A DNA stretch of 64,000 nt, from the NCBI GenBank assembly GCA_017619615.1, contig JAFZRY010000021.1, forward strand, positions 1 to 64,000. Direction: 5' to 3'. How positions within the stretch are numbered: position 1 is the first letter of the stretch; every line of letters starts with the position of its first letter. The DNA comes from Lachnospiraceae bacterium. GTDB lineage: Bacteria > Bacillota > Clostridia > Lachnospirales > Lachnospiraceae. The position numbers were made by a program, and so were the translations under genes. The notes below the pieces were generated by a model, which did not search any database, was not told the DNA's origin, and was given only the letters and a program-made list of their open reading frames with translations. Shown in pieces: positions 4,717 through 57,889 of this stretch.

Positions 4717-5091
4717 CTATTTCCGGTTTTTGAGCACTGCATTTACAAGCGCATCGCTCAACTCTTCAGACGGCATCTTGGCATAATGCTGTGATTCGTC
4801 GAATGCGGGGTAGTTATAGCGCCACCGGTCATATTCGTCCTTGGAAATCGATCCTGCGCGGTATTTTGCCGCAAAATCGCCCCAGGAAGCTACCATCCGG
4901 GCAATAGTCAGAGCATCGGTTCCTTTCCGGGCATCGAAACGAAGCACGGTGTTTCCGCCTTCCTGCTCCACAGTTGGACTGGGGTGAAAAGTGACACTGG
5001 GTGAATAATGGTCGTATGGGTAGGAAAGAGAGGAAAAAAGATGCTCGGGCAATACTTTTGGCGCGATGTGCAAGAGTAGCATCGCCATCAT
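4717..5091 (-). CDS. Orphan 124-aa ORF, possible tail of a mobile-element protein
   Basis: Not recognised with confidence. The first 45 residues are low in coding character, while the last 75 (ALTIARMVASWGDFAAKYRAG through DEYDRWRYNYPAFD to SEELSDALV) read like the C-terminus of a longer protein. I suspect, without proof, a recombinase or mobilisation protein. The ATG at 5089-5091 overlaps the stop of the upstream HTH gene as TAATG, so it could be coupled, but no independent ribosome binding site is seen. The base composition is closer to AT than the neighbours and the gene abuts the palindrome-rich scar, which favours a remnant of a larger gene. Confidence 0.4.
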   Translation of the reverse strand: MMAMLLLHIAPKVLPEHLFSSLSYPYDHYSPSVTFHPSPTVEQEGGNTVLRFDARKGTDALTIARMVASWGDFAAKYRAGSISKDEYDRWRYNYPAFDESQHYAKMPSEELSDALVNAVLKNRK

Positions 5092-5594
5092 TAGCTGCTG
5101 TACCCATCATACAACCCCGACGCCTCTTTGATCTCCCTCAAATCCCTCTGCATCGTCCTCAACGTATACTTCCTCATCCTCGCTTTCTCCGCCAACTCCT
5201 TATAATGCGCCGCCGCCACCGGCTCATCATCATCATCATCCTCCTCCTCAAAAAACCACGGCTCCTTCTCCTCCAGCAGCTGCGACAGCCTGATCAGCCT
5301 CGTCAGATGGTTCAGATGAGACCCTCTCGGGAAAATGGACAGTTCCACGCTGTCGATCAGCCCCTCCGTGCAGAATTCGCTCCGCCCTTCCCGCCCGGAA
5401 TGGTGGATCTCGCTTTCGGAGAAGATCTCCCGGATATCGCTTACATACCGGAAAAGAGTTCTTTCGGATACGTGAAGCATCTCCATGACGTTTTCGCACA
5501 GAAACGCCTCCTCCCGATATAAGAGGAAATACAGAAACAATTCCATGACGGTCTTGCTCGGCCCGTCCTTTTTGCGTCTTCCCGGAATCTCCAT
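5091..5594 (-). CDS. Small helix-turn-helix regulator
   Basis: A 167-aa protein without membrane segments. The N-terminal 60 residues form a DeoR/HTH_11-like winged helix (MELFLYFLLYREEAFLCENV, SERTLFRYVSDIREIF). The middle has an acidic run (EEEDDDDDEP), and the C-terminus repeats an HTH-like pattern (LRTMQRDLREIKE). It resembles the DNA-binding part of WYL-type regulators with the sensor domain missing. It is transcribed divergently from the AAA-M41 protease gene 160 bp away, so it may control that gene (inference). Confidence 0.65.
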   Translation of the reverse strand: MEIPGRRKKDGPSKTVMELFLYFLLYREEAFLCENVMEMLHVSERTLFRYVSDIREIFSESEIHHSGREGRSEFCTEGLIDSVELSIFPRGSHLNHLTRLIRLSQLLEEKEPWFFEEEDDDDDEPVAAAHYKELAEKARMRKYTLRTMQRDLREIKEASGLYDGYSS

Positions 5595-5752
5595 ATCAGC
5601 CGGCCTCCCTGCTTTCTGACCTCATCTTATCGCCGCGACAACAGTTTGTCAATCTTGCAGAAATTAATTTGATATTCTACCCGTGGATCTGCTAAAAATA
5701 TATCCGCGTGCCCCGCGGACACCCTCAAATCTCACGAAAGAAAGGAAACGAT

Positions 5753-7036
5753 ATGCACGAATTTGACTCAATCATCGGTTACGACGCCATCAAGCAGGAA
5801 CTTATGCAAATCAGCGACGCCCTGAAAAACGCGGACGCCTACACGCAGCTCGGCGTGCAGCCGCCCCGCGGCCTGATGCTTTACGGCGAGCCCGGCGTGG
5901 GCAAGAGCATGATGGCCGCCGCCCTTATCGAAGCCGGCGGCCGGAAGGCGTTCACCTGCCGCAAGGACAAGCCGGACGGGGAATTCGTGGGGCAAATCAC
6001 CGCGACCTTTGAGGCGGCGAAAGCGGCCGCGCCGTCCATCGTCTTTCTGGACGACATGGACAAGTTCGCGAACGGGGACAAGAAGCACCCGGACGCGGAA
6101 GAATACGTTACGGTCCAGTCCTGCATCGACGGGTGCAAAGGCGCAGACGTTTTTGTCCTGGCCACCGTCAATAACATCGACAACCTGCCGGATTCGCTCT
6201 GCCGCGCGGGCCGCTTTGACCGCATTATTGAGGTCAGAAACCCGTCCGGGGAGGACGCGGAAAAAATCATCGCGCACTATATCGCCGGGAAGAAATTCGT
6301 GGGCGACATCGATGCGCGGACCGTGGCCCGCCTGATGGACGGTCATTCCTGTGCGGAACTCGAGACCCTCATCAATGAGGCGGGGCTCTACGCGGGCTAC
6401 GAACGGTCTCCGGAAATCACGATGGACCATTTCATGAAAGCGATTCTCCACACGGTCTTCGACGTGCCGAACGAGGAAATCACAGCATTCGGCCGGGGCG
6501 GGAACGAGCGGCAGGACTTTGTCCAGGTGGCCTACCACGAGGCCGGGCACGCTGTGGTCAGCGAAGTCCTGGAACCGGGCAGTGTGACGATGGTCTCTGC
6601 TTTTGCACAGGACGGGGAAAACAGGGGCTTCACCCGCTGCTGGACGGATAACCGGGTACGGGCCATGGACCGCATGGAACACCGCATCATCCGGGCGCTG
6701 GGCGGCGCGGCGGCCAGCGAGCAGGTCTTCGGCTGCTTTGACCCCGGCTGCGCCCGGGACCTGGACCAGGCATTCAATGTGGTCTGGCGCCTGGTCACGG
6801 ACAACTGCACCTGCGGCTTCCACCTGCACAACAACGGCCGGGACTCCGAGGACTTGCGCGCAAGGCAGGAACAGGCGGCCGCGGCGGAAGTGGAACGCTA
6901 TTACCGCAAGGCCAAGGAAATCCTGACGCAGAACAGGGACCTGCTGGAAGGCATCGCGCAGGGTCTGATGCGGAAAGGCATCCTGACGGCGGAAGATATC
7001 GCGGCCATCCGGAAGGACTGCGGGAAGGCTGCCTGA
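5753..7036 (+). CDS. Soluble FtsH-like AAA ATPase fused to M41 metallopeptidase
   Basis: A 427-aa ATP-dependent zinc protease without membrane helices, whereas canonical FtsH is about 600-650 aa and membrane-anchored. The AAA module has Walker A GEPGVGKS (45-52), an FVG pore-loop motif (78-80), Walker B IVFLDDMD (96-103) and Arg-finger region CRAGRFDR (150-157). The M41 domain has HEAGH at 262-266 and the third zinc ligand as Asp336 (ARDLDQAF), so catalysis should be intact. The start at 5753 is chosen because AAAGGAAAC lies just upstream and the downstream sequence begins the AAA helix. It is the first gene of a rightward accessory run and diverges from an HTH regulator. Its substrates are unknown; without a membrane anchor it would act on cytosolic proteins. 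Confidence 0.9.
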   Translation: MHEFDSIIGYDAIKQELMQISDALKNADAYTQLGVQPPRGLMLYGEPGVGKSMMAAALIEAGGRKAFTCRKDKPDGEFVGQITATFEAAKAAAPSIVFLDDMDKFANGDKKHPDAEEYVTVQSCIDGCKGADVFVLATVNNIDNLPDSLCRAGRFDRIIEVRNPSGEDAEKIIAHYIAGKKFVGDIDARTVARLMDGHSCAELETLINEAGLYAGYERSPEITMDHFMKAILHTVFDVPNEEITAFGRGGNERQDFVQVAYHEAGHAVVSEVLEPGSVTMVSAFAQDGENRGFTRCWTDNRVRAMDRMEHRIIRALGGAAASEQVFGCFDPGCARDLDQAFNVVWRLVTDNCTCGFHLHNNGRDSEDLRARQEQAAAAEVERYYRKAKEILTQNRDLLEGIAQGLMRKGILTAEDIAAIRKDCGKAA

Positions 7037-7181: not shown

Positions 7182-8321
7182 ATGAAGATTCTTTATATCC
7201 ACGGACTTGGGTCCGGCAAGAACAGCGAAACACCGAAACGGCTGCGGAATGCGCTCCCGGAGGCGGAGGTCCTCTCCCCGGAGATCCCGATCGATCCGGC
7301 AGAAGCCATGCGGTTCCTGGAAGAAAACTTCCTGAACGACACGGGTATCGATCTGGTGGTCGGTTCTTCCCTGGGCGGCTTTTACAGCCTGCTTCTGAAG
7401 CATCACAAAAAAATGCTGGCCAATCCGGCACTGTTTGCGGACGAAGACATTGAGCGCGGGATCGGTCTTGGCGTGCAGGAGTTTCTGAGCGAGAGAGAGA
7501 ACGGTGCGAAGACTTATGTGATCGATCAGGCCTTTATCCGGGGGCTGGCTGCGATCCGCACCAAAATCTTTGATTCCGACCCGCTGCGACCCGGTGCACC
7601 GGCCCCGGAGCAGGTGGAAAACACCTGGGCCATCTTTGCGCGCAGTGACGAACTGCTGGCGCATTACGACGACTTCTGCCGCCTGTTCCGGCCGGATCAC
7701 GCGTTTCGTATGGAAGGGGAGCACCGCGTCAGCGCGGCAAACATGCGGGAGGACATCGTTCCGCTGATTCGGAAGATCATGGAGGACAAGAGTATGGATC
7801 AGAAACAGAACAATGGGATCGATATCAAAATAGCAGATATTACGGCTCTGAACACGGATGCGATCGTCAATGCCGCGAATGAAGGCCTCTGGGCCGGCGG
7901 CGGTGTCTGCGGCGCCATCTTCTGTGCTGCGGGGCACGAAAAACTGCAGAAAGCCTGCAGCGCCATCGGCCACTGCGACACCGGTTCCGCCGTGATCACC
8001 TCCGGGTTTGCCCTGAAGGCGAAATACGTCATCCACGCCGTCGGCCCCGTCTGGCGCGGCGGAGAGGACCATGAGGAGGAGAAACTGTACGGTGCGTACT
8101 TCCGGTCGCTGGAACTGGCGCTGGAAAACGGCTGCCGGTCCGTCGCGTTCCCGCTGATCTCGTCCGGGATCTTCGGCTATCCGAAAAAGCAGGCCTGGGA
8201 AGTGGCGGTCAGAGCCTGCCGGGATTTCTTCGATAAACATCCGGAGGCGGGGATGCAGGTGACGTTCGCAGTGCTGAATGAGGGAATTGCAATGCTCGGG
8301 AAGAAAGTGCTGGGAGAGTAA
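7182..8321 (+). CDS. YqiA-like esterase fused to a macrodomain
   Basis: A 379-aa two-domain protein. Residues 1-200 are an alpha/beta hydrolase of the YqiA/UPF0227 type: an oxyanion-like IHGLGSG start, nucleophile Ser63 in VVGSSLGGFY, and likely Asp156 (ARSDELL) and His181 (GEHRV). Residues 212-379 are a macrodomain with the ADP-ribose motif DAIVNAANEGLWAGGG and the later LISSGIFGYP loop. Macrodomains bind or hydrolyse ADP-ribose derivatives and YqiA proteins are small-ester hydrolases, so the fusion suggests processing of an esterified or ADP-ribosylated substrate (inference). A second ATG at 7794, preceded 8 bp upstream by GGAGG, could yield the macrodomain alone. A second macrodomain gene lies at 55.2 kb. 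Confidence 0.88.
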   Translation: MKILYIHGLGSGKNSETPKRLRNALPEAEVLSPEIPIDPAEAMRFLEENFLNDTGIDLVVGSSLGGFYSLLLKHHKKMLANPALFADEDIERGIGLGVQEFLSERENGAKTYVIDQAFIRGLAAIRTKIFDSDPLRPGAPAPEQVENTWAIFARSDELLAHYDDFCRLFRPDHAFRMEGEHRVSAANMREDIVPLIRKIMEDKSMDQKQNNGIDIKIADITALNTDAIVNAANEGLWAGGGVCGAIFCAAGHEKLQKACSAIGHCDTGSAVITSGFALKAKYVIHAVGPVWRGGEDHEEEKLYGAYFRSLELALENGCRSVAFPLISSGIFGYPKKQAWEVAVRACRDFFDKHPEAGMQVTFAVLNEGIAMLGKKVLGE

Positions 8322-8364
8322 TAGCATGGCGGTCGACGACGTCATTTCTAAAAAGACGAAAAAC

Positions 8365-8395
8365 AAAAGCCTTCTGTCAGAACGGAAGGCTTTTT
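8365..8395 (+). terminator. Rho-independent terminator after the esterase-macro gene
   Basis: AAAGCCTTC (8366-8374) pairs with GAAGGCTTT (8385-8393) and runs into five T. Confidence 0.85.
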
Positions 8396-8439
8396 CAGTC
8401 GACTGTCAGACCCTGAGTTTTTTTTTGCTCGTAATTAAT

Positions 8440-8469
8440 TTGAATTTCCCCCTCCCGAAGTGTTATGAT
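8440..8469 (+). promoter_or_regulatory. Promoter of the PolC-like gene operon
   Basis: TTGAAT (8440-8445), 18-bp spacer and TATGAT (8464-8469) lie 44 bp before the 81-aa gene. Confidence 0.55.
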
Positions 8470-8512
8470 CCTTCCTGCGTGAGGGACCGCACACGAGAAA
8501 GGAAGGTGCTGC

Positions 8513-8758
8513 ATGACCTACATTTTGCTGGACGAGAACGGAAAATTCCTGGCTGAACGGCAGTATATCGCGCGCATCAGCCTGTTCATGGACGAGCACG
8601 GCAAGCGGCCGGCGCCGGGGGTGACCTACAGGCTGGTCTGCTCCCTGGGCGCTCCCGAGATGGCGGTGACGTCCGAGACGACGATGGCTGACCTGCGCGC
8701 TTTCAGCGATGAATGCGAGGAAGAAAAGGAATATCTCTCCGACCTGTTCGATGATTAG
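8513..8758 (+). CDS. Unknown 81-aa acidic protein
   Basis: Not recognised. It has a clear ribosome binding site (GAAAGGAAGG) before the ATG, a short beta-like N-terminus (MTYILLDENGKFL) and a very acidic C-terminus (DECEEEKEYLSDLFDD), with no membrane segment, Cys motif or signal peptide. It is the first gene after a promoter, 42 bp ahead of the PolC-derived gene, so the two are probably co-transcribed. It could be a small partner or inhibitor of the next protein (inference from position only). Confidence 0.65.
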   Translation: MTYILLDENGKFLAERQYIARISLFMDEHGKRPAPGVTYRLVCSLGAPEMAVTSETTMADLRAFSDECEEEKEYLSDLFDD

Positions 8759-8800
8759 ATTTCGCACATCCTCCGTGCTGCACTGACTTCCGGAAGAAGA

Positions 8801-10084
8801 ATGGAAAGGACAACTGTAATGATAAAATCGGAATCCGCCATGCTGCGCGGCCTGCAGCTGGCCGGTATCATCAAACTGAAAACTCTGTATCCGGCGGGAA
8901 CGCCGGACGCGGTCCATGAGCGTCTGGAGCGGGAATGGCAACGGATGCGGGAATGCGGGCAGACGGAAGACTTTTATGTGTTCCAGGCGCTGGCGGAGGC
9001 GGCGCGGCGCACGGGAAGCCCGTTCAATCTTCGCGGCCCCGGGAACGCGTCCCTGCTGGTTTTTCTTTTGCATGACTCTGCCGTCGACCCCATGCCGGCA
9101 TATTATTACTGCAAAAACTGCGGGTATTATGAAGAAATACCGGACGTTCTCTTCGGCCTGGACGCAGAAGACAGGCCGTGCCCCCGCTGCGGGACCGTGA
9201 TGACGGGACAGGGGTTTTCTCTCCCGGAAGAGTTTGCCTGGCGGGACGGAAAAGGGGTGGACCTGTTCGAAATAACGGCCCGCATGCCGGCGGCCTCCAT
9301 CCTGTCGGAACTGAAAAGGCATTACGGAAACAGGGCGGCCAAACTGGCGGAATACGCGGCCGACGGGCAGGGCAGGCCTGTCTGCACCCTGGAAGACTGC
9401 GTCCGCCGCTTCGTCATTTTCCCGGAGGGGAAAACGGTCAAAGACTATCCGGATCTTGCGGTCCGGTGCGGCAGGGAAAAGGCGGTCTGCGCGCCGCCGG
9501 AGGAACTGGACCGGCTGGGGACACGGAGATGGACGTTTGTCCGCTGGATGAATTATCCCCTGGGAGGCCATGCGAACATGTCGCTGCGCGGCGTCATGCC
9601 CATGCCGGAGCTGATGGAGAAACTGAGAGGCCGGGTCGGGATCCCGGATCTTCTGCCCCATGGCGAAGTGCTGTCCTGGGGCGGCAATGCGACACGGATG
9701 CGCCGGGCCTGGCAGCGCATGCAGGAAGAGACGCCGGAGTCGTTCTATGAACTGACAGAAGCGGTGTGCTATTCGCACAGTACATGGAGGCTGCCGTACC
9801 CGGCCGATGACGGGCCCGTCTTTTCCTCGCGAGAAGGGCTTTACCACCTGCTTGTCCGGAACGGGATACCGGGGCCGGATGCTTTCCGGATCGCGGAATT
9901 TGTCCGGAAAGGCCGGGCGGCGGATCCGGCGCGCCGGGAAGAGTGGCAGAAATATCTGGATGCGTTCCCCATACCGGAGACTGTGCGGGCAGATGCGGAG
10001 AATTGCCGGTATCTCTGGTCACAGGCGGTGGTGCTTCCGACGGTGACGGACGCCATCGCGAGCGCGGGCCGGAGAAAGATTTAA
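8801..10084 (+). CDS. Degenerate PolC-type DNA polymerase relative, probably catalytically dead
   Basis: A 427-aa protein whose landmarks follow the order of the C-terminal half of PolC. Residues 27-75 match the LYG..P..V..RLE entry to the palm. FNLRGPGNASLLVFLL (75-90) replaces the VGSRGSVGSSFVA loop. The PolC zinc knuckle is complete (Cys104, Cys107, Cys127, Cys130). Residues 300-330 (RRAWQRMQEETPESFYEL then YSHSTWR) match the fingers segment that ends LSHGTDVW. Residues 344-372 (REGLYHLLVRNGI, AFRIAEFVRKG) match the DIMLYLI...AFKIME.VRKG helices. The palm motif PDIDLNF is reduced to GVDLFEI (152-158) and the IDILGHDDPT loop reads NMSLRGVMPMPE (259-270), so most catalytic Asp residues seem lost. 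The PHP, OB and exonuclease regions are absent. The role is unknown; a regulatory or nucleic-acid-binding relic is one reading. The assignment is from motif recall, not alignment. Confidence 0.7.
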   Translation: MERTTVMIKSESAMLRGLQLAGIIKLKTLYPAGTPDAVHERLEREWQRMRECGQTEDFYVFQALAEAARRTGSPFNLRGPGNASLLVFLLHDSAVDPMPAYYYCKNCGYYEEIPDVLFGLDAEDRPCPRCGTVMTGQGFSLPEEFAWRDGKGVDLFEITARMPAASILSELKRHYGNRAAKLAEYAADGQGRPVCTLEDCVRRFVIFPEGKTVKDYPDLAVRCGREKAVCAPPEELDRLGTRRWTFVRWMNYPLGGHANMSLRGVMPMPELMEKLRGRVGIPDLLPHGEVLSWGGNATRMRRAWQRMQEETPESFYELTEAVCYSHSTWRLPYPADDGPVFSSREGLYHLLVRNGIPGPDAFRIAEFVRKGRAADPARREEWQKYLDAFPIPETVRADAENCRYLWSQAVVLPTVTDAIASAGRRKI

Positions 10085-10103
10085 AAATGAGAGCGGTGGA
10101 ATA

Positions 10104-10808
10104 ATGATTTATGTGACATCGGACCTGCACGGCTGTTATGACAAATTCATGCGCCTGCTGAAAATGATCGGCCTGAAAGCGGACGATACGCTCTACATTC
10201 TGGGCGATCTGGTCGACCGGGGGCCGGAAAACGCGGACACGGTCATTGCCGCGGCTTCCCGGAAAAATATCCGTGTTTTGATGGGAAATCACGATTATCT
10301 GGCTTCCCTGATGATCCAAAAATTCTGCATGGATGACGGCCCGGAGGATCCGGAAACGCTCCGGGCGAAAGCCCCCGAACTGTGGGACATCCGGGAGATG
10401 TGGCTTTCCGACGGCGGCGAAGCCACCCGGGCCGAGATCATGCGGCAGCCCAGACAGGTCAGGGACGTGATCCGGCGTTTCCTGGGCAGACAGCCTGTTT
10501 TTGAGGAAATCACGGTGAACGGACAGACTTACCATCTGTCTCATTCCGTCCCGGGCCGGGAAAAACTGCTGGACACGGAGCACTGGGACCTGAGCGATTT
10601 CCTGTTCGGGCGCCCGGAATATGACAAGGTCTATTTCCCGGACAAGATCCTGGTGACGGGGCATACCCCGACGGGCCTGATCGATGAAGCGTCGGCGGGC
10701 CGGATCTGGAAGAAGAACAATCATATCGCGGTGGATTGCGGCGCCGTTTTCGGAGGTCCGCTCGGCTGCATCTGCCTGGATACGGGAGAGGAGTTTTACG
10801 CGGAATGA
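10104..10808 (+). CDS. PPP-family metallophosphatase
   Basis: A 234-aa metal-dependent phosphoesterase of the bacterial serine/threonine phosphatase (PrpA/PrpE/ApaH-like) group. It carries the ordered motifs SDLHGCYDK (6-14), LGDLVDRGPEN (near 34), MGNHDYL (near 60) and VTGHTPTG (near 185) that bind the dinuclear metal centre. It is cytosolic. It starts 19 bp after the PolC-like gene and is very likely in its operon; substrates could be phosphoproteins or dinucleoside polyphosphates. Confidence 0.9.
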   Translation: MIYVTSDLHGCYDKFMRLLKMIGLKADDTLYILGDLVDRGPENADTVIAAASRKNIRVLMGNHDYLASLMIQKFCMDDGPEDPETLRAKAPELWDIREMWLSDGGEATRAEIMRQPRQVRDVIRRFLGRQPVFEEITVNGQTYHLSHSVPGREKLLDTEHWDLSDFLFGRPEYDKVYFPDKILVTGHTPTGLIDEASAGRIWKKNNHIAVDCGAVFGGPLGCICLDTGEEFYAE

Positions 10809-10826
10809 ATATCGACGGGAGGGATC

Positions 10827-11474
10827 ATGATTAAATTTTCGGAGTATAAGAAGATCCTCGACAGTACGCCGGAATCGGAAGGATTGGAGTTTAAGTCCCG
10901 GTATTTCTGGCATAATATGTGGCGATATCCGAGGATATTGGTTTCTTTAGGAGACAATAAGGATCCCGTTATCCGTGTTCCGGCCGAAGTTGAGACACAG
11001 TACAACTGCAAGCCGCCTGTAACGGCTGTTTCGGGGAGTGCTTTTCGGGGAAATGAGACCGTTACGGATATTATCCTTCCGCCAAGTGTGTCCAGTATCG
11101 GAACAGGGGCTTTTGCCAACTGCACTCATCTTAAACGGATCACGATCCCGAAAAAGGTGACGTGTATCCCGGAAGCGGCTTTCGGCAATTGCCGGGAGCT
11201 GGAGGATATTTATTATGAGGGCAGCAGAGAAGAATGGAGCCGGGTCAGGATCGTGCACGAAAAGCACGAGGTGGGACTGACCGGCGAACTGATCCCGGGG
11301 ACGCCGGTGGAGGTGGTGAGGGATGAAAGACTGGAGCACATTCCGGGGAATGAAGCGCTGTACTGCTGCAACATCCATCTGAACTGCGATCTGGGCGAGA
11401 GCGGAGCGGATCCGCAGCTGCACCTGTATGTCGGAGGGAAGGAGATCACGGAGGCATTCACGGTAAAAGGGTAA
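10827..11474 (+). CDS. Cytosolic BspA-like leucine-rich repeat protein
   Basis: A 215-aa protein without signal peptide. Residues 65-135 contain LRR_5 (Treponema pallidum-type) repeats: ITDIILPPSV-like strands and the SSIGTGAFANCTHLKRITIP and YYEGSREEW signatures. These domains normally mediate protein binding. It follows the phosphatase gene by 18 bp, with GGGAGG before the ATG, and is probably in the same operon. The C-terminal 70 residues (YCCNIHLNCDLGES) are of unknown fold. Function is not known. Confidence 0.7.
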   Translation: MIKFSEYKKILDSTPESEGLEFKSRYFWHNMWRYPRILVSLGDNKDPVIRVPAEVETQYNCKPPVTAVSGSAFRGNETVTDIILPPSVSSIGTGAFANCTHLKRITIPKKVTCIPEAAFGNCRELEDIYYEGSREEWSRVRIVHEKHEVGLTGELIPGTPVEVVRDERLEHIPGNEALYCCNIHLNCDLGESGADPQLHLYVGGKEITEAFTVKG

Positions 11475-11540
11475 TACCATGGCGGGCAGCGCGGTCGTTT
11501 TCGTGTTTACTATTGATGATTCGTCTGGTATATTAAGAAT

Positions 11541-12560
11541 ATGACAGAACACAGTGAAAAAACTGAAAACCGGAAACGCCGCGACCTGATATTCCTCCTG
11601 GCCGGCCTTGTGCTCGGCCTGGGCATCGCCGGCTTCCTGACCCTGGTCCTGCCGAAAAAGCAGGCGGATCCGCCGGCACAGGAGACGACAGGTACAGGTC
11701 CGGAAGAGAGCACGACCGTTTCTCCGGTGACTTCCGCCCCTGCACCCGTCCGCCGTCCTCTGGCGGAGCTGCGCGAAAACTACACCCCGGAGCAGGCGGA
11801 GCGGGACGACTGCGTGGTCCTGGACGGCTTTGATCTCCTGCACGGCCAGCTGCTGTGGAACGAATTCCTGCAGCAGACGCGGGCCGGGGAACCTGCCGTC
11901 ATCCGCGTTTATCAGGGGTGGCGGACGCCGGAAAACGACTACACCCTCTTTGAACTGGAATACACCGGCGCGGAATATGAACTGACCTTTTACGGCCGCA
12001 CCGGCGACACTCACGAATGGTTCCTGAGCACCGGCCGCTATCGATACCTGAAAGAAGAGACCTTTACATTATATGAGAACACGGACCTGGTCTATATGCT
12101 GACGGACGACATGACGGCGGAATATGAGGAATATATCGCGCGCATGGTCTCCTCCATCCCCCTTTCACCGGATCCTCGGTACGACAATATCGCGGTCCTC
12201 TTCCGCCAAAACAATTCAGTTCCGCCGGGACAGTACACTTCCGTTTACGGCATCGAGACGTACGACGTGGACGGGGACGGCACGGAGGAACGCTGCTACC
12301 TGTGCCGCGGCCGCACTTCCGGCCTTTTCACGTTCTTTCTGTCCATTTACGGACGGAAGGACGGACTGCGCTATACCCGGACCTACTGTACGGATTTCAT
12401 GGAACTGAGTTTCGCCCGGGCGGAGGACGGCAAACTCTGCGTGCAGGGAGTCACCGGGCAGGGGGACTCGGCGCAGACGCACCTTTACCGGATCGTGACC
12501 CGGGACGGGGGGATCGAGCTGGAGGAGAACGGAGAGTACCTGAAAGGGGATAAGCCTTGA
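11541..12560 (+). CDS. Membrane-anchored exported protein with a DUF4362-like segment
   Basis: A 339-aa protein with a charged N-terminus, one membrane helix (about residues 15-38), a Pro/Thr/Glu-rich spacer and an extracytoplasmic domain. The stretch CVVLDGFDLLHGQLLWNEFL followed by GEPAVIRVYQ resembles DUF4362-type proteins of Firmicutes (family recalled, not searched). A DVDGDGTEER motif near residue 240 looks like a calcium-binding or VCBS-like strand. The stop overlaps the next start as TGATG, which suggests coupling to the HAD-GNAT gene. Function unknown. Confidence 0.65.
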   Translation: MTEHSEKTENRKRRDLIFLLAGLVLGLGIAGFLTLVLPKKQADPPAQETTGTGPEESTTVSPVTSAPAPVRRPLAELRENYTPEQAERDDCVVLDGFDLLHGQLLWNEFLQQTRAGEPAVIRVYQGWRTPENDYTLFELEYTGAEYELTFYGRTGDTHEWFLSTGRYRYLKEETFTLYENTDLVYMLTDDMTAEYEEYIARMVSSIPLSPDPRYDNIAVLFRQNNSVPPGQYTSVYGIETYDVDGDGTEERCYLCRGRTSGLFTFFLSIYGRKDGLRYTRTYCTDFMELSFARAEDGKLCVQGVTGQGDSAQTHLYRIVTRDGGIELEENGEYLKGDKP

Positions 12561-13741
12561 TGAAAAAGCAGTATTCCGTGTTCCTGTTCGACCTGGACGG
12601 CACGCTGACCGATTCGGGCCCCGGTGTCATGCACGGATTTGAATATGCGATCCGGAAGATGGGCCGGGAAGTGCCGGACGAGGCGATGCTCAGGCGGTTC
12701 ATGGGGCCGCCGCTGCAGGAATCGTTCGGGCAGATGCTCGGATATTCGGAGGAAGACACGGGGAGGGCGATCGCCCTGTACCGGGAGTATTATTTCAGCT
12801 GCGGCGGGATCCGGGAGAATACGGTCTATCCGGGCGTGGAAGAACTGCTGGCGGGTCTCCGGCAAAGGGGAAAAACGCTGGTGGTGGCCACGTCAAAAAG
12901 CGTCGACGGGGCGGAGGCGGTGCTGGAGCAGTTCGGGCTCCGGAAGTACTTCGACCTGGTCGCGGCGGCGGATGAAACGGACCGGATCACCAAGGAGGAC
13001 GTGCTGCAGTACGCCTGTGACTGTTGCGGGATCAGTTCGGAGAGCGCGGTCATGATTGGCGACCGGCATTATGATATCCGGGCCGCGAAAGAGTTCGAGT
13101 TCAGGTCAGTCGGTGTGCTGTGGGGGTACGGAAGCCGGGAGGAACTGGAGGAGGCCGGCGCAGACTATATTGCGGAAAGGCCGGAGGATATCCTGGAATG
13201 GTTTGGCGATTCTCCGGAAACAGGGAAGACAGAAAAGCCTGAAGAAGATCTGCAGTTATACATCCCCCGCCCCGAAGACGGCTGGCTTTACCTGAAAATG
13301 ATGTCCGACCCCGCCACGATGGCCTACAACGCGCCGTGGTTCCCGCCGGACGGATGCATTCCGGACGCGGAGGAAGAGTGGGAGCGTTTGCAGGAGAAGT
13401 GGATCGGCGGGGCGCCGGAGCGGTTTTACGCGTTCTTGCAGCGGAAGTCGGACGGCGCTTTTGTGGGCGACGTGAATTATCATTACAACCCGGAACGCGG
13501 CTGGTGGGACATGGGGATCGTGATCTATGCCCCGGAGCGCGGGAAGGGATACGGTGAGCAGGGGCTGCGCCTGCTGATGGAGCGGGCTTTCCAGACCGAC
13601 GGGATCGCGCGGCTGCATAATGATTTTGAGACGGCGCGCGGGGCGGCGTACCGCATCCATAAAAAAGCCGGCTTCCGGGAAGCCGGCGTGGAGGACGGGA
13701 ACGTCCAGCTGGAGATCACGAGGGAAGAGTATCTGGGGTGA
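12560..13741 (+). CDS. HAD phosphatase fused to a GNAT acetyltransferase
   Basis: A 393-aa fusion. Residues 1-215 are a phosphoglycolate phosphatase-like HAD hydrolase: motif I FDLDGTLTD (9-17), motif II VVATSKS, motif III Lys in RITKED and motif IV MIGDRHYD. Residues 230-393 are a GNAT domain: YIPRPEDGWLYLKMMSD entry, the acetyl-CoA loop PERGKGYGEQGL and the terminal HKKAGFREAG strand, close to the ribosomal-protein (RimJ/RimL) group. The ATG at 12560 overlaps the upstream stop by one base. The partner substrates are unknown. The 3' end overlaps the convergent kinase gene by 26 bp. Confidence 0.88.
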   Translation: MKKQYSVFLFDLDGTLTDSGPGVMHGFEYAIRKMGREVPDEAMLRRFMGPPLQESFGQMLGYSEEDTGRAIALYREYYFSCGGIRENTVYPGVEELLAGLRQRGKTLVVATSKSVDGAEAVLEQFGLRKYFDLVAAADETDRITKEDVLQYACDCCGISSESAVMIGDRHYDIRAAKEFEFRSVGVLWGYGSREELEEAGADYIAERPEDILEWFGDSPETGKTEKPEEDLQLYIPRPEDGWLYLKMMSDPATMAYNAPWFPPDGCIPDAEEEWERLQEKWIGGAPERFYAFLQRKSDGAFVGDVNYHYNPERGWWDMGIVIYAPERGKGYGEQGLRLLMERAFQTDGIARLHNDFETARGAAYRIHKKAGFREAGVEDGNVQLEITREEYLG

Positions 13742-14315
13742 GGCCGGCGCGGGGTGTCAGCTGAAAAGCCTCGATGATGCGGTCCGCCGCTTGCTCAGGC
13801 GTCAGATCGGTGTTGTCGATCTTCACATGGTTATCAAACCAGGTCTCGCCGTCCGCGGAGTTCAGCCGGTGCTCCGCCGCGTCTTTCAGAAGATTGGCCC
13901 GGCTCCAGGCGACGTTCCGCTTGGAGGGCTTGCGCTCCATCCGGTGGGGCGTTTCATTTCTCGCGAGTCTGGTCTCCAGGCTCGCGTTTAATTCGGCGAA
14001 GAAGAAGCGGCCGCCGCTCTGGGTGAAGAGGTCGTGCAGGCCGGTCAGGTAGTCGCGTTCTTCCTGCAGGTCGAAGGCGCAGACGTAGGTGAAGATCAGG
14101 TCCAGGTCGTATTGGATGGCCACTTCGAAGGCCTTTTCGCGGAAGGCTTCGTTGAATTCCCGCTGAGCGGGCGTGCCGAAGCCGAAGATGCGGTCCGACA
14201 CTTCGATGCTGTCGTGATTCATCATCATGCTGCAATGCAGTCTGTCGCGGAGCGCTTCCGCGACCGTCATTTTGCCGACCGCCTGGGGGCCGCAGATCAC
14301 GATCAGGTCAGCCAC
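13716..14315 (-). CDS. P-loop kinase of the AAA_33/zeta-toxin-like group
   Basis: A 199-aa cytosolic protein with Walker A GPQAVGKMT (9-17), where GKM replaces the usual GKS/T step, a NHDSIE substrate loop and a RMERKPSKRN basic region. It resembles small nucleotide or metabolite kinases of unknown substrate. The start overlaps the end of the dehydrogenase-kinase fusion gene by 8 bp, so the two are coupled. No antitoxin-like gene adjoins it, so a toxin role is not supported. Confidence 0.75.
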   Translation of the reverse strand: MADLIVICGPQAVGKMTVAEALRDRLHCSMMMNHDSIEVSDRIFGFGTPAQREFNEAFREKAFEVAIQYDLDLIFTYVCAFDLQEERDYLTGLHDLFTQSGGRFFFAELNASLETRLARNETPHRMERKPSKRNVAWSRANLLKDAAEHRLNSADGETWFDNHVKIDNTDLTPEQAADRIIEAFQLTPRAGLTPDTLPS

Positions 14316-55229: not shown

Positions 55230-56438
55230 ATGGCGCTCACCATCATACGCAACGACATCACCAAAATGGCGGCGGATGCCATCGTCAACACGGCCGGCAG
55301 CGAGCCGCGTGTCGGCCGCGGCTGCGATATCGCCGTGTACCGGGCCGCGGGCTATGACGAGCTGCTCGCGTACCGCACGGAACACGTCGGCACCGTGCCC
55401 GAGGGGGAAGTATTCCTGACCCCCGGTTTTGCGCTGCCCGCGAAACATATCATCCACGCGGTGAGCCCGCTGTACCGGGACGGCTCGCAGGGCGAAGAGG
55501 AAAAGCTTCGGTCCTGCTACCGCAAAAGCCTGGAACTGGCGGCGGCGCAGGGCTTCCGTTCGGTCGCGTTCCCGCTGATCGCGACGGGCAGCTTCGGCTA
55601 CCCGAAGGAAGAAGGCCTGCGGATCGCGGCGGACGAGATCAACGCGTTCCTGCTGCGGCACGAGATGCAGGTGTATCTGGTGGTGTTCGGCGATGAATCG
55701 GTTGCGCTGGGGCGGAAGATCACACCGCACCTGGAAGCGTATATCGACAGCCACTACGCGCAGGAGAAGGCCCGGGAAGAGTACGGGAGCGTACAGGAAG
55801 ACCGGCGGGAGTCCGGATTCCGGGCGGATCTTTCCGCAGGCGCGATGCCCCGGCCCGCGGCTTCCCAGATGCGGCCGGCGGCTCCGGTGACGCCCCGCCC
55901 GGCAGCCTTCGCTCCGGCTTCGGAAACGGCGGATCAGGCGAAAGCCCCGAAAAAAAAGAGCACGTTCCTGTGGAGACCGAAGAAAAAAGAAGAGGCGCCT
56001 GCCCCGTCATCGGAACCGGTCCCGGTGGTCAAGGAAGAGGAGGTCCTCGACTTTGCCTCGGAACATGAAAGCAAACTGCAGGAACGCATCCGCCACATGT
56101 CGGACACCTTTTCGGAGTATCTGCTCTACCTGATCAAAGAGAAGGGCATGGACAACGCGGCGGTCTACAAGCGCGCCATCGTGGACAAAAAAGTCTTCTC
56201 CAAGATCAAAAACAATCCGGACTACCACCCGCAGAAACTCACCGCCCTGTGCCTGTGCGTCGGCGCCTGCCTGAACCTGGACGAGACGCGCGACCTGCTG
56301 GCGCGCGCCGGGTACGCGCTGTCGCCGAGCGACAAGACGGACATCATTTTTGCGTACTTCATCGAGAATGAGATCTATGACATGATCGAACTGGATATCC
56401 AGCTGGAGGAACACGGCCTGCCGTGCATTATTGAGTAA
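55230..56438 (+). CDS. Macrodomain protein with a C-terminal helical domain
   Basis: A 402-aa protein. The macrodomain covers residues 1-165 (ADAIVNTAGSEPRVGRGC, LIATGSFGYPKEEGL) with VGRGCD replacing the usual GGG.V loop. A Pro/Ala/Lys linker (about 185-270, PKKKSTFLWRPKKKEE) leads to a helical C-terminal domain (ERIRHMSDTFSEYLLYLIKE, AVYKRAIVDKKVFSKIKNNP, DLLARAGYALSPSDKTDI). This end resembles an XRE-like HTH variant seen after macrodomains in Firmicutes (recalled). It may recognise ADP-ribosylated targets and bind nucleic acid or protein. A second macrodomain occurs at 7.2 kb. Confidence 0.82.
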   Translation: MALTIIRNDITKMAADAIVNTAGSEPRVGRGCDIAVYRAAGYDELLAYRTEHVGTVPEGEVFLTPGFALPAKHIIHAVSPLYRDGSQGEEEKLRSCYRKSLELAAAQGFRSVAFPLIATGSFGYPKEEGLRIAADEINAFLLRHEMQVYLVVFGDESVALGRKITPHLEAYIDSHYAQEKAREEYGSVQEDRRESGFRADLSAGAMPRPAASQMRPAAPVTPRPAAFAPASETADQAKAPKKKSTFLWRPKKKEEAPAPSSEPVPVVKEEEVLDFASEHESKLQERIRHMSDTFSEYLLYLIKEKGMDNAAVYKRAIVDKKVFSKIKNNPDYHPQKLTALCLCVGACLNLDETRDLLARAGYALSPSDKTDIIFAYFIENEIYDMIELDIQLEEHGLPCIIE

Positions 56439-56489
56439 GACGAAATCTGCCAAAAGGAGGCGGACTTTGCCGGGACGGCGAGGAAATAG

Positions 56490-57020
56490 ATGGAACGGGC
56501 AAAAGAATTGTTTCTGAAATACAGCGGAAACGGGTACTTCATGGACCTGGACGGCGTCGGTCATGAATATGCCGCATACCGCGTTCCGAAAGAGACGGAA
56601 GAACTGTGGGCGCAGGAGTTTATTTCCGGTTTCCTGAGATCGGAAACGCAGGGAAAAGAAGCGCTGCGGGCTTACTCGACCGTGACGGAACTGGTGAGGA
56701 AAAACGGGCGGGCCGGTATTTGGGAGAAATGCCTGTATTACCCGCTCAGGGCCGGACATCTGGATGACGTCACGATCCTGTTCATGCTGCGCAGCAGTTT
56801 CCGGATGGCGGAACGGGCGGTTAAAAAACGCGGCTTTTCGCGGGAAGACGCCGGTGCGTATCTGCAGGAACTGGAGGGGTATAATCAGCAGGTCCGGGAC
56901 CGGGCGGAAAAAGGGACGCTTACGCGGACGGCAGACTACGTGATGCGGGAGTTTTCCGATCCGGAGTATGTTGCGTGGTATCTGGACGATTTGAAAATGA
57001 AGTGGAAGGGGCTGTTCTGA
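56490..57020 (+). CDS. Unknown 176-aa protein
   Basis: Not recognised. A soluble, mostly helical protein without membrane segment or Cys motif; the acidic/basic pattern and FMLRSSFRMAERAVKKRGFSRED segment suggest a compact helical fold. GAGGAAATAG lies before the ATG at 56490. It follows the macrodomain gene by 51 bp and may belong to the same transcript. Confidence 0.6.
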   Translation: MERAKELFLKYSGNGYFMDLDGVGHEYAAYRVPKETEELWAQEFISGFLRSETQGKEALRAYSTVTELVRKNGRAGIWEKCLYYPLRAGHLDDVTILFMLRSSFRMAERAVKKRGFSREDAGAYLQELEGYNQQVRDRAEKGTLTRTADYVMREFSDPEYVAWYLDDLKMKWKGLF

Positions 57021-57095
57021 GGGACGGTCCCGGCGCGTGCCGCTGGTTTTCAAGTCCATCCGGCCGTTTGAATAATTATTTGTGTATTCTTTCAG

Positions 57096-57125
57096 GGTCG
57101 CCCGCGCGGCGACCTGTTTTATTTT
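57096..57125 (+). terminator. Terminator before the VWA gene
   Basis: GGTCGCC (57096-57102) pairs with GGCGACC (57108-57114), followed by TGTTTTATTTT. Confidence 0.75.
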
Positions 57126-57134
57126 GCGCTGCCG

Positions 57135-57140
57135 TATAAT
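57135..57140 (+). promoter_or_regulatory. Probable -10 of the VWA gene
   Basis: TATAAT 54 bp before the ATG at 57194; no clear -35 is seen because the terminator hairpin fills that position. Confidence 0.35.
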
Positions 57141-57193
57141 GGCCCCGAAAAGAAAACCTCCCCGGCGGGGAATCATAAAAGGAGGAATATACG

Positions 57194-57889
57194 ATGCGCA
57201 AAGGTTTAACGGAAGTGGTTTTCATCTTAGACAGAAGCGGGTCCATGAGCGGCCTGGAGGCGGACACGATCGGCGGCTTCAACTCCCTGATCGAAAAGCA
57301 GAAAAAGGAAGAGGGCGAGGCCCTGATCTCGACGGTGCTGTTCGACGATAAGATCGAGGTGCTGTACGACCGCGTGCCCGTGGACAAAATCGAGCCGATG
57401 ACGGACCGCCAGTATTACGTGCGCGGCTGCACGGCGCTGCTGGATGCGGTGGGCCGGGCGATCCATCACATCTCGCAGGTGCATAAGTACGCGCGGGAGG
57501 AGGACCGGCCGGAGAAGACGCTGTTCGTCATCACGACGGACGGGATGGAGAACGCCAGCCGGGAGTACAGTTATCAGAAAGTGAAGGAGATGGTGGAGCA
57601 CGAAAAGGAGAAGTACGGCTGGGAATTCCTGTTCCTGGGCGCGAATATCGATGCGGTGTCGGAAGCGCGGCGCTTCGGGATCGGTGCGGACCGGGCCGTG
57701 CGGTATGAGTGCGACAGTGCGGGAACGGAACTGAATTTCCGGGTCGTGTCCCGGGCGGTGTCGACGGTGCGGCGGGCGAAGAGTAAGGCGGAAGCCTCGG
57801 CGGCGATGGAGTGCTGCGTGGAGGAGATCCGCGCGGATTACGAGGCGCGCGGCGAAGAGAAAAAGCAGAAAGTGCGGCGTGCCAGATAA
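57194..57889 (+). CDS. Von Willebrand factor A-domain protein
   Basis: A 231-aa cytosolic VWA domain with a complete MIDAS metal site: DRSGSMSG (13-20), Thr in CTALLDAVG and Asp in ITTDGMENAS. VWA domains bind protein partners through Mg2+. AAAGGAGG precedes the ATG. No MoxR ATPase or TerD-like gene is adjacent, so the partner is unknown. The Lys/Arg-rich C-terminus (EEKKQKVRRAR) suggests nucleic-acid or acidic-protein contact. Confidence 0.9.
   Translation: MRKGLTEVVFILDRSGSMSGLEADTIGGFNSLIEKQKKEEGEALISTVLFDDKIEVLYDRVPVDKIEPMTDRQYYVRGCTALLDAVGRAIHHISQVHKYAREEDRPEKTLFVITTDGMENASREYSYQKVKEMVEHEKEKYGWEFLFLGANIDAVSEARRFGIGADRAVRYECDSAGTELNFRVVSRAVSTVRRAKSKAEASAAMECCVEEIRADYEARGEEKKQKVRRAR

Follow-up and report, generated by a model that had tools for sequence, protein, structure and literature searches.

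A shortened PolC paralogue beside an intact polC

The window analyzed here is a stretch of 64,000 nucleotides from a Lachnospiraceae bacterium (GenBank assembly GCA_017619615.1, contig JAFZRY010000021.1, positions 1 to 64,000 of the forward strand). Between the genes for a small acidic protein and a metallophosphatase (Table 1), a frame with an ATG start encodes a 427-residue protein which, judged from sequence comparisons and a predicted model, is very probably an inactivated paralogue of PolC, the DNA polymerase III α subunit of the C family, in which the palm-thumb-fingers core is left, zinc knuckle included. The protein matches PRK00448 (E 1.5e-16) and polC_Gram_pos (E 2.3e-15) in NCBIfam and Geobacillus PolC (3f2b, E 1.6e-13) in the PDB. 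A profile (A6) of five members of the group that we call type I (the window protein and those of L113, L114, G222, and G165) reaches 3f2b at E 8.6e-45, in two blocks that follow in the correct order; at E 0.01, two PolC sequences are its only PDB matches, and an hhalign comparison of A6 with 25 real PolCs spans 419 columns (probability 100, E 5.5e-46).

What type I has in common with PolC (3f2b, 9qpc) is the palm-thumb-fingers fold, as far as homology and the predicted model tell, the order of the motifs, and the Cys4 knuckle, whose cysteines are invariant in 5 aligned type-I rows and in the 25 real PolCs. A sequence-only reading of this DNA had named as its marks the knuckle, the replacement of LSHGTDVW by SHSTW, and the AF.I.EFVRKG helix, and all of them are present. 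PHP and OB domains are missing, as that reading had noted (no match at E 1; the frame begins at the palm), and so is the exonuclease (Exo); in addition, the protein stops behind the fingers and lacks the (HhH)2 element and the clamp-binding C terminus, the duplex and clamp part of PolC. Clamp binding, offered in the same reading as a possible new role, is unsupported because the clamp motif sits in this missing part, and it was dismissed.

Unlike PolC itself, type I is an extra copy. The genome of the window (G000) has an intact polC elsewhere (G000:C31; L036 843-4751), which encodes 1302 residues and retains PDIDLNF and LKLDILGHDD, and a separate polC with an open frame of 1265-1541 codons was found in all 12 searched genomes that have short PolC-like genes. 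The proposal of a shortened, inactivated paralogue that is retained alongside a normal PolC is thus borne out, with homologues present in other genera and under purifying selection. The G000:C31 PolC appears to be without the exonuclease insertion, in that YLVDD soon runs into YHIIILAKN; some clostridial PolCs of this kind are mentioned in the cited part of PMC3919608.

Table 1. Features of the window around the PolC-like gene
Feature	Positions	Strand	Basis
Catalytically degenerate PolC palm-thumb-fingers paralogue (type-I pseudo-PolC)	8801..10084	+	Profile and structure comparisons, predicted model
Cys4 zinc knuckle, C104-x2-C107 ... C127-x2-C130	9110..9190	+	Alignment
PDIDLNF position; first Asp replaced by Leu155, second position acidic (Glu157)	9239..9280	+	Alignments
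Fingers segment (SHSTW; AFRIAEFVRKG)	9713..10012	+	PDB and profile comparison
Orphan acidic 81-residue protein, isoelectric point 4.4; first gene of the likely unit	8513..8758	+	Open reading frame and searches
PPP-type metallophosphatase, 234 residues	10104..10808	+	Metallophos, E 3.3e-14
LRR_5 protein, after a gap of 18 bp; candidate for the last gene of the unit	10827..11474	+	Domain search
Inverted repeat that ends in Ts; may be the terminator of the macro-domain gene upstream (unflagged by the terminator scan)	8365..8394	+	
Promoter-like site, TTGAAT-18-TATGAT	8440..8469	+	Consensus match only
UPF0227 hydrolase and macro-domain gene (upstream context)	7182..8321	+	Domain search
Weak HTH_11-like protein (context)	5091..5594	-	Domain search

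A catalytic site without its first aspartate

The palm of PolC carries two catalytic Asp residues in PDIDLNF and one in LKLDILGHDD, and all three are present in 25 of 25 aligned real PolCs. One other alignment of the window protein places Gly152 and Asp154, instead of the residues given in Table 1, in the PDIDLNF Asp columns; whichever is used, the first Asp is lost and the second position is acidic. These two columns can be read in seven members: the first Asp is replaced in every one (Leu, Ser, Ser, Gly, Ser, Ser, and Ser in the window, L113, L114, G222, G165, G179, and G369, respectively), and the second position holds Glu in four and Asp in three. At the third position, eight non-window rows have Ser, Leu, Leu, Cys, or Arg, so that Asp is lost in 8 of 9; the window residue is ambiguous, being Thr by profile comparison and Asp in one alignment. 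Of the claim that both motifs are eroded, then, the loss of the first Asp stands in either alignment, the second position has stayed acidic, and the third cannot be assigned firmly in the window.

Could such a protein still be an active mini-polymerase or a nucleotidyl transferase which uses the remaining acidic residue and others? The acidic second position in all seven members, the ambiguous third position of the window, and the related PHP-type mini-PolCs that keep all three Asp residues (L125, L129, and G409) speak for it; the losses at the first and third positions, together with the absolute conservation of the catalytic Asp residues reported within the C family in the cited part of PMC3919608, make it the least probable of the explanations weighed here, and a very remote one.

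In the Y and X families, inactivated homologues are known to have taken on new roles: ImuB/iPolY and PolX with a dead polymerase site likewise keep the polymerase fold and lose catalytic residues (PMC12926913). The passages of that paper drawn on here describe no inactivated C-family site; they state that strongly diverged or truncated sequences were discarded before phylogenetic analysis, and one published polymerase survey, in its cited part, required an intact active site. No dead or PolC-like C-family paralogue was found described in the open-licence literature. For annotation, the caution is that short PolC matches need not be polymerases.

Type-I genes are rare and kept by selection

In a sample of 397 genomes of the family, A6 at E 1e-38 matches 12. 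Six of these carry type-I genes (G000, G165, G222, G179, G285, and G369); the match in G409 is a short PolC of the PHP type, those in G136, G237, G265, and G273 are judged by the length of their frames (1415-1514 residues) to be polC, and that in G283 is a polC cut by the contig end. A decayed copy in G036 falls below the threshold and brings the count to 7 of 397. The G285 gene has an internal stop, that of G369 is missing its N terminus, and that of G036 is cut. Two further type-I genes come from metagenome-assembled Lachnospiraceae genomes, L113 (JAUNBT010000027.1; BLASTP E 2e-44 with the window protein) and L114 (JAFQAU010000180.1). Within the genus of the window, the gene is present in 2 of 16 genomes, G000 and G011. 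A search of 392 genomes of the order with another profile, A2, gave matches swamped by real polC.

A tree of 32 rows (G132 omitted) groups the window protein with those of L113, L114, G165, and G222 (support 100/98) and places the short PolC forms outside the real-polC group (support 92/98). By its substitutions, the type-I clade is under purifying selection: G179 and G369, 63% identical in amino acids, differ by pN 0.22 and pS 0.75 (proportions of nonsynonymous and synonymous differences), with synonymous sites near saturation, and nonsynonymous change is greater in pairs with the decayed copy of G036 (0.33 for G179/G036). The window gene differs between G000 and G011 by four synonymous and no nonsynonymous changes, too few alone to prove selection. 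Synonymous divergence (dS) between these two genomes is 0.013-0.024 across the block of acidic-protein, PolC-like, and phosphatase genes, as against 0.08 for the upstream macro-domain gene, 0.047 for the LRR gene, and 0.09-0.23 for genes from position 11541 onward; the still more upstream AAA gene, with 0.003, is near-identical too. The low value for the three-gene block fits recent exchange.

A functionless fragment of a duplicated polC, on its way to being lost, would also show missing catalytic residues, broken or cut copies, and a presence in just 2 of 16 genomes of one genus. Such decay is nevertheless very unlikely: frames are intact in six lineages (the window, L113, L114, G165, G222, and G179), selection is purifying, the zinc cysteines are invariant, the branch falls outside the polC genes of this family, with the reserve that long branches call for, and the gene is repeatedly linked to one regulator and its palindrome, as set out below.

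A WYL regulator, a shared palindrome, and XRE fusions

In L113, L114, and G036, the type-I gene stands head-to-head with a gene for a helix-turn-helix (HTH) regulator with a WYL domain, of which G036 has a fragment only. When this WYL subfamily was used as bait at E 1e-50, it was found in 4 of the 397 family genomes, each time head-to-head with an intact or broken type-I gene; with L113 and L114 included, the arrangement holds at 6 of 6 WYL loci. Read in the reverse direction, the regulator accompanies type I in 4 of the 7 carriers in the sample and at 6 of 9 type-I loci overall, and in G285 and G036 both genes are damaged. This, and not the acidic protein and phosphatase put forward in the sequence-only reading, is the recurrent association of type I, and it is absent at the window.

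The aligned intergenic regions of L113, L114, G165, G222, and G285 have in common the palindrome GCTGTRC-N8-GYACAGC, exact in the last three and with one mismatch in the first two. On visual inspection, it sits directly outside the -35 region of each of the two divergent promoters. Searched genome-wide, the exact palindrome occurs in one place in G165, one in G285, two in G222, and none in four other genomes. The layout recalls that of PafBC (PMC11804915), CapW (PMC9122588), and BrxR (PMC9122601), which, in the parts of these papers used here, are likewise HTH-WYL proteins beside a probably controlled gene, with a palindromic site in the promoter region: PafBC is activated by single-stranded DNA, CapW binds its palindrome and represses CBASS genes, and BrxR, a repressor of defence genes, binds inverted repeats. 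The differences are that the WYL neighbor here is a dead PolC rather than a repair, CBASS, or BREX gene, and that the window copy is without a regulator.

In other genomes, regulator and polymerase core are one protein. XRE-family regulators have an N-terminal HTH and a C-terminal sensory part; in G057, an HTH_3 domain (E 5.9e-16) is likewise at the N terminus, whereas what follows toward the C terminus is a dead PolC core. A second fusion in G265 is 59% identical, which makes at least two in the 397 genomes, and the ratio of nonsynonymous to synonymous substitution rates (dN/dS) for the pair is 0.19. On the same contig (G057:C9; L034 1-6400), a CRISPR-like array of 73 repeat copies about 66 bp apart lies upstream of the fusion gene.

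The remaining short forms are varied. G355 encodes a PolC-like form of 526 residues, with a start that appears to overlap the tail of a recN-like frame and with an SseB-macro gene behind it; those of G432 and G132 have 555 and 334 residues, the latter without the zinc knuckle. G382 has a PHP form of 837 residues in which the Asp motifs are lost; in the PHP forms of L125, L129, and G409, which lack OB and Exo, none of the three catalytic Asp residues is lost. The short forms thus include dead cores at one extreme and potentially active mini-PolCs at the other. PHP-PolC proteins of 765-859 residues with the three Asp residues kept (L125 1217-3514, L129 903-3482, and L216 6002-8482) are possible active mini-PolCs. 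The 555-residue form of G432 belongs to a same-strand run of shrunken replication-protein paralogues (L072, G432:C14:112000-128000, at 7903-13907), which further holds a DnaB-like protein of 121 residues (an N-terminal piece and, after it, the last 49 DnaB_C positions), a UPF0227 hydrolase, two DnaA ATPase-like proteins, and a DnaE-like protein of 399 residues, with a PcfJ-like gene behind.

A polymerase core in a regulatory role?

If the core has lost its catalytic site and an intact polC is at hand, what is it kept for? With relatives preserved by selection and often paired with or fused to regulators, it looks like a polymerase turned regulatory or DNA-binding protein. The best explanation, in which our confidence falls just short of even, is a dead PolC core that still holds nucleic acid or a nucleotide and works with an HTH regulator. 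A dead core which sits beside a WYL regulator, of a class that single-stranded DNA can switch in other bacteria, or which is fused to an HTH, suggests DNA or nucleotide binding and a role in replication trouble.

How such a module would work can be sketched as follows: (i) the old polymerase cleft would hold a primer-template, a single-stranded gap, or a nucleotide without extension; (ii) in WYL-linked relatives, the shared palindrome is probably where the regulator acts to control the dead polymerase; (iii) in XRE fusions, the dead polymerase would be the sensory half of the regulator itself; and (iv) the core, once bound to DNA or nucleotide, may report or act on replication trouble. In the window, the same module would stand beside the orphan acidic protein and the metallophosphatase, without a WYL gene. 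As a mechanism, the use of a dead PolC as a regulated DNA-binding or sensory module is a tentative proposal, and a shade more doubtful is its fullest form: a replicative polymerase core that, in bacteria of this family, now serves a transcription-control module as its sensory or effector half and reads DNA or nucleotides at stalled forks, in cis (XRE) or in trans (WYL and palindrome). Confirmation would add replicative polymerases to the folds that have been reused in regulation; the pair of WYL regulator and dead PolC would be a small, easily tested unit for bacterial sensing of replication trouble.

Several observations weigh against this reading. A search at E 1e-50 found the WYL gene in none of the three carriers G179, G369, and G000 (the window); nor was the palindrome found in the gaps before the window unit, in the 209 bases that precede the G179 gene, upstream of the G369 gene, or at G036, where the locus is damaged. 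With both missing at the window, the regulatory interpretation there rests on relatives that are 25-29% identical to the window protein, which itself lies on a long branch, so that its placement carries some risk and the deeper order is unsure. Three of the seven type-I genes in the sample are broken or cut, and the gene is therefore readily lost. Seven long type-I proteins have isoelectric points of 5.6-7.0 and are not basic, and neither are four real PolC cores (5.2-6.1). Finally, the palm of the window protein is modeled poorly, with residues 160-296 mostly below 50 in pLDDT, the per-residue confidence score.

A different use of a dead core would be as a replication decoy or defence effector, induced by stress or phage, which blocks the fork by competing for the primer-template in a dominant-negative manner. 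The WYL repressors BrxR and CapW control phage-defence operons, according to the cited parts of PMC9122601 and PMC9122588; type-I genes are sparse and easily lost, as defence genes are; several shrunken replication proteins lie side by side in G432; and the G057 copy is downstream of a CRISPR-like array. A pure decoy, however, leaves the HTH fusions unexplained and would be short of the clamp-binding and PHP parts that help entry into the replisome. The PolC-like proteins of the window, L113, G355, and G432 have no match among PADLOC models at E 0.01, and no confirmed relative turned up in viral contigs. We therefore regard the decoy as rather unlikely, behind the regulatory module.

The G057 fusion does match PADLOC models, via its HTH part, and its PolC-like half gives a weak TerY match (E 0.0046). 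Three scans of viral contigs matched 3, 15, and 36 stretches, with 0 confirmed relatives. Matches in the phage and plasmid collection are polC-like: the frames read in H1, H2, and H21 are full-length polC, and the remainder are presumed to be so. A phage or plasmid origin was dismissed on these grounds. Full-length polC genes are carried by a "plasmid" stretch (OY725841.1 67328-92644; L037), whose neighbors look chromosomal by eye, and by two "Bacteriophage sp." records (MT838461.1, L038; MT835981.1, L039); all three look mislabeled or contaminated.

The neighborhood of the window gene

The acidic-protein, PolC-like, and phosphatase genes are separated by gaps of 42 and 19 bp and preceded by the inverted repeat and the promoter-like site, which makes a single unit from 8513 to 10808, perhaps to 11474, plausible, as the co-transcription of the three genes claimed from the sequence alone would have it. 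A palindrome of the WYL type at this locus was considered and dismissed: with up to three mismatches, the window has 20 matches (7.6 expected; largest of 100 shuffles, 14), which exceeds chance, but the one nearest the unit, at 8581, falls within the acidic-protein gene. A link of the HTH_11-like protein to the WYL regulator was dismissed as well, there being no similarity.

That the three genes form a conserved association, as also claimed, is a weaker case. In a set of 98 genomes, the 81-residue protein matches only G000 and one very close genome, G011, and the phosphatase subfamily (E 1e-40) occurs in nine, seven of them beyond these two; a search of those seven with the window protein gave only polC-length frames and no type-I gene. 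On the other side, a phosphatase 39% identical lies near the PolC-like gene of G382 and another metallophosphatase near that of G409. A tie between PolC-like proteins and phosphatases is suggestive only.

Neighbors of this kind would acquire a meaning if the PolC-like protein held nucleic acid for the adjoining phosphatase and macro or KptA enzymes, in a gene set for ADP-ribose or RNA repair. The window has the phosphatase alongside and a macro domain upstream; KptA accompanies the phosphatase near the G382 gene; ADP-ribosylglycohydrolase and macro-domain genes join the one near that of G409; the SseB-macro gene lies behind that of G355; and a macro gene is about 2.6 kb from the broken G285 copy (by eye). 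A repair set is improbable all the same, for these genes show no tie to type I: a second macro gene lies at 55230 of the window, and the seven genomes just mentioned have the phosphatase without a type-I gene. Nor was any macro, KptA, or phosphatase gene seen by eye in the stretches around L113, L114, G165, and G222.

No PADLOC model matched the acidic protein, the phosphatase, or the UPF0227-macro protein. Further upstream, at 5708-7036, the window encodes an FtsH-like protein with AAA (E 9e-20) and M41 peptidase (E 3e-18) domains, the AAA part of which matches PADLOC IetA models (best E 2e-17). At 55230-57889, the second macro-domain gene lies near a vWA-type gene, with one small gene between them (Pfam; the vWA match is below the cut-off), and a macro-domain gene near a vWA-type gene is also seen, by eye, in L198 at 9415-11258.
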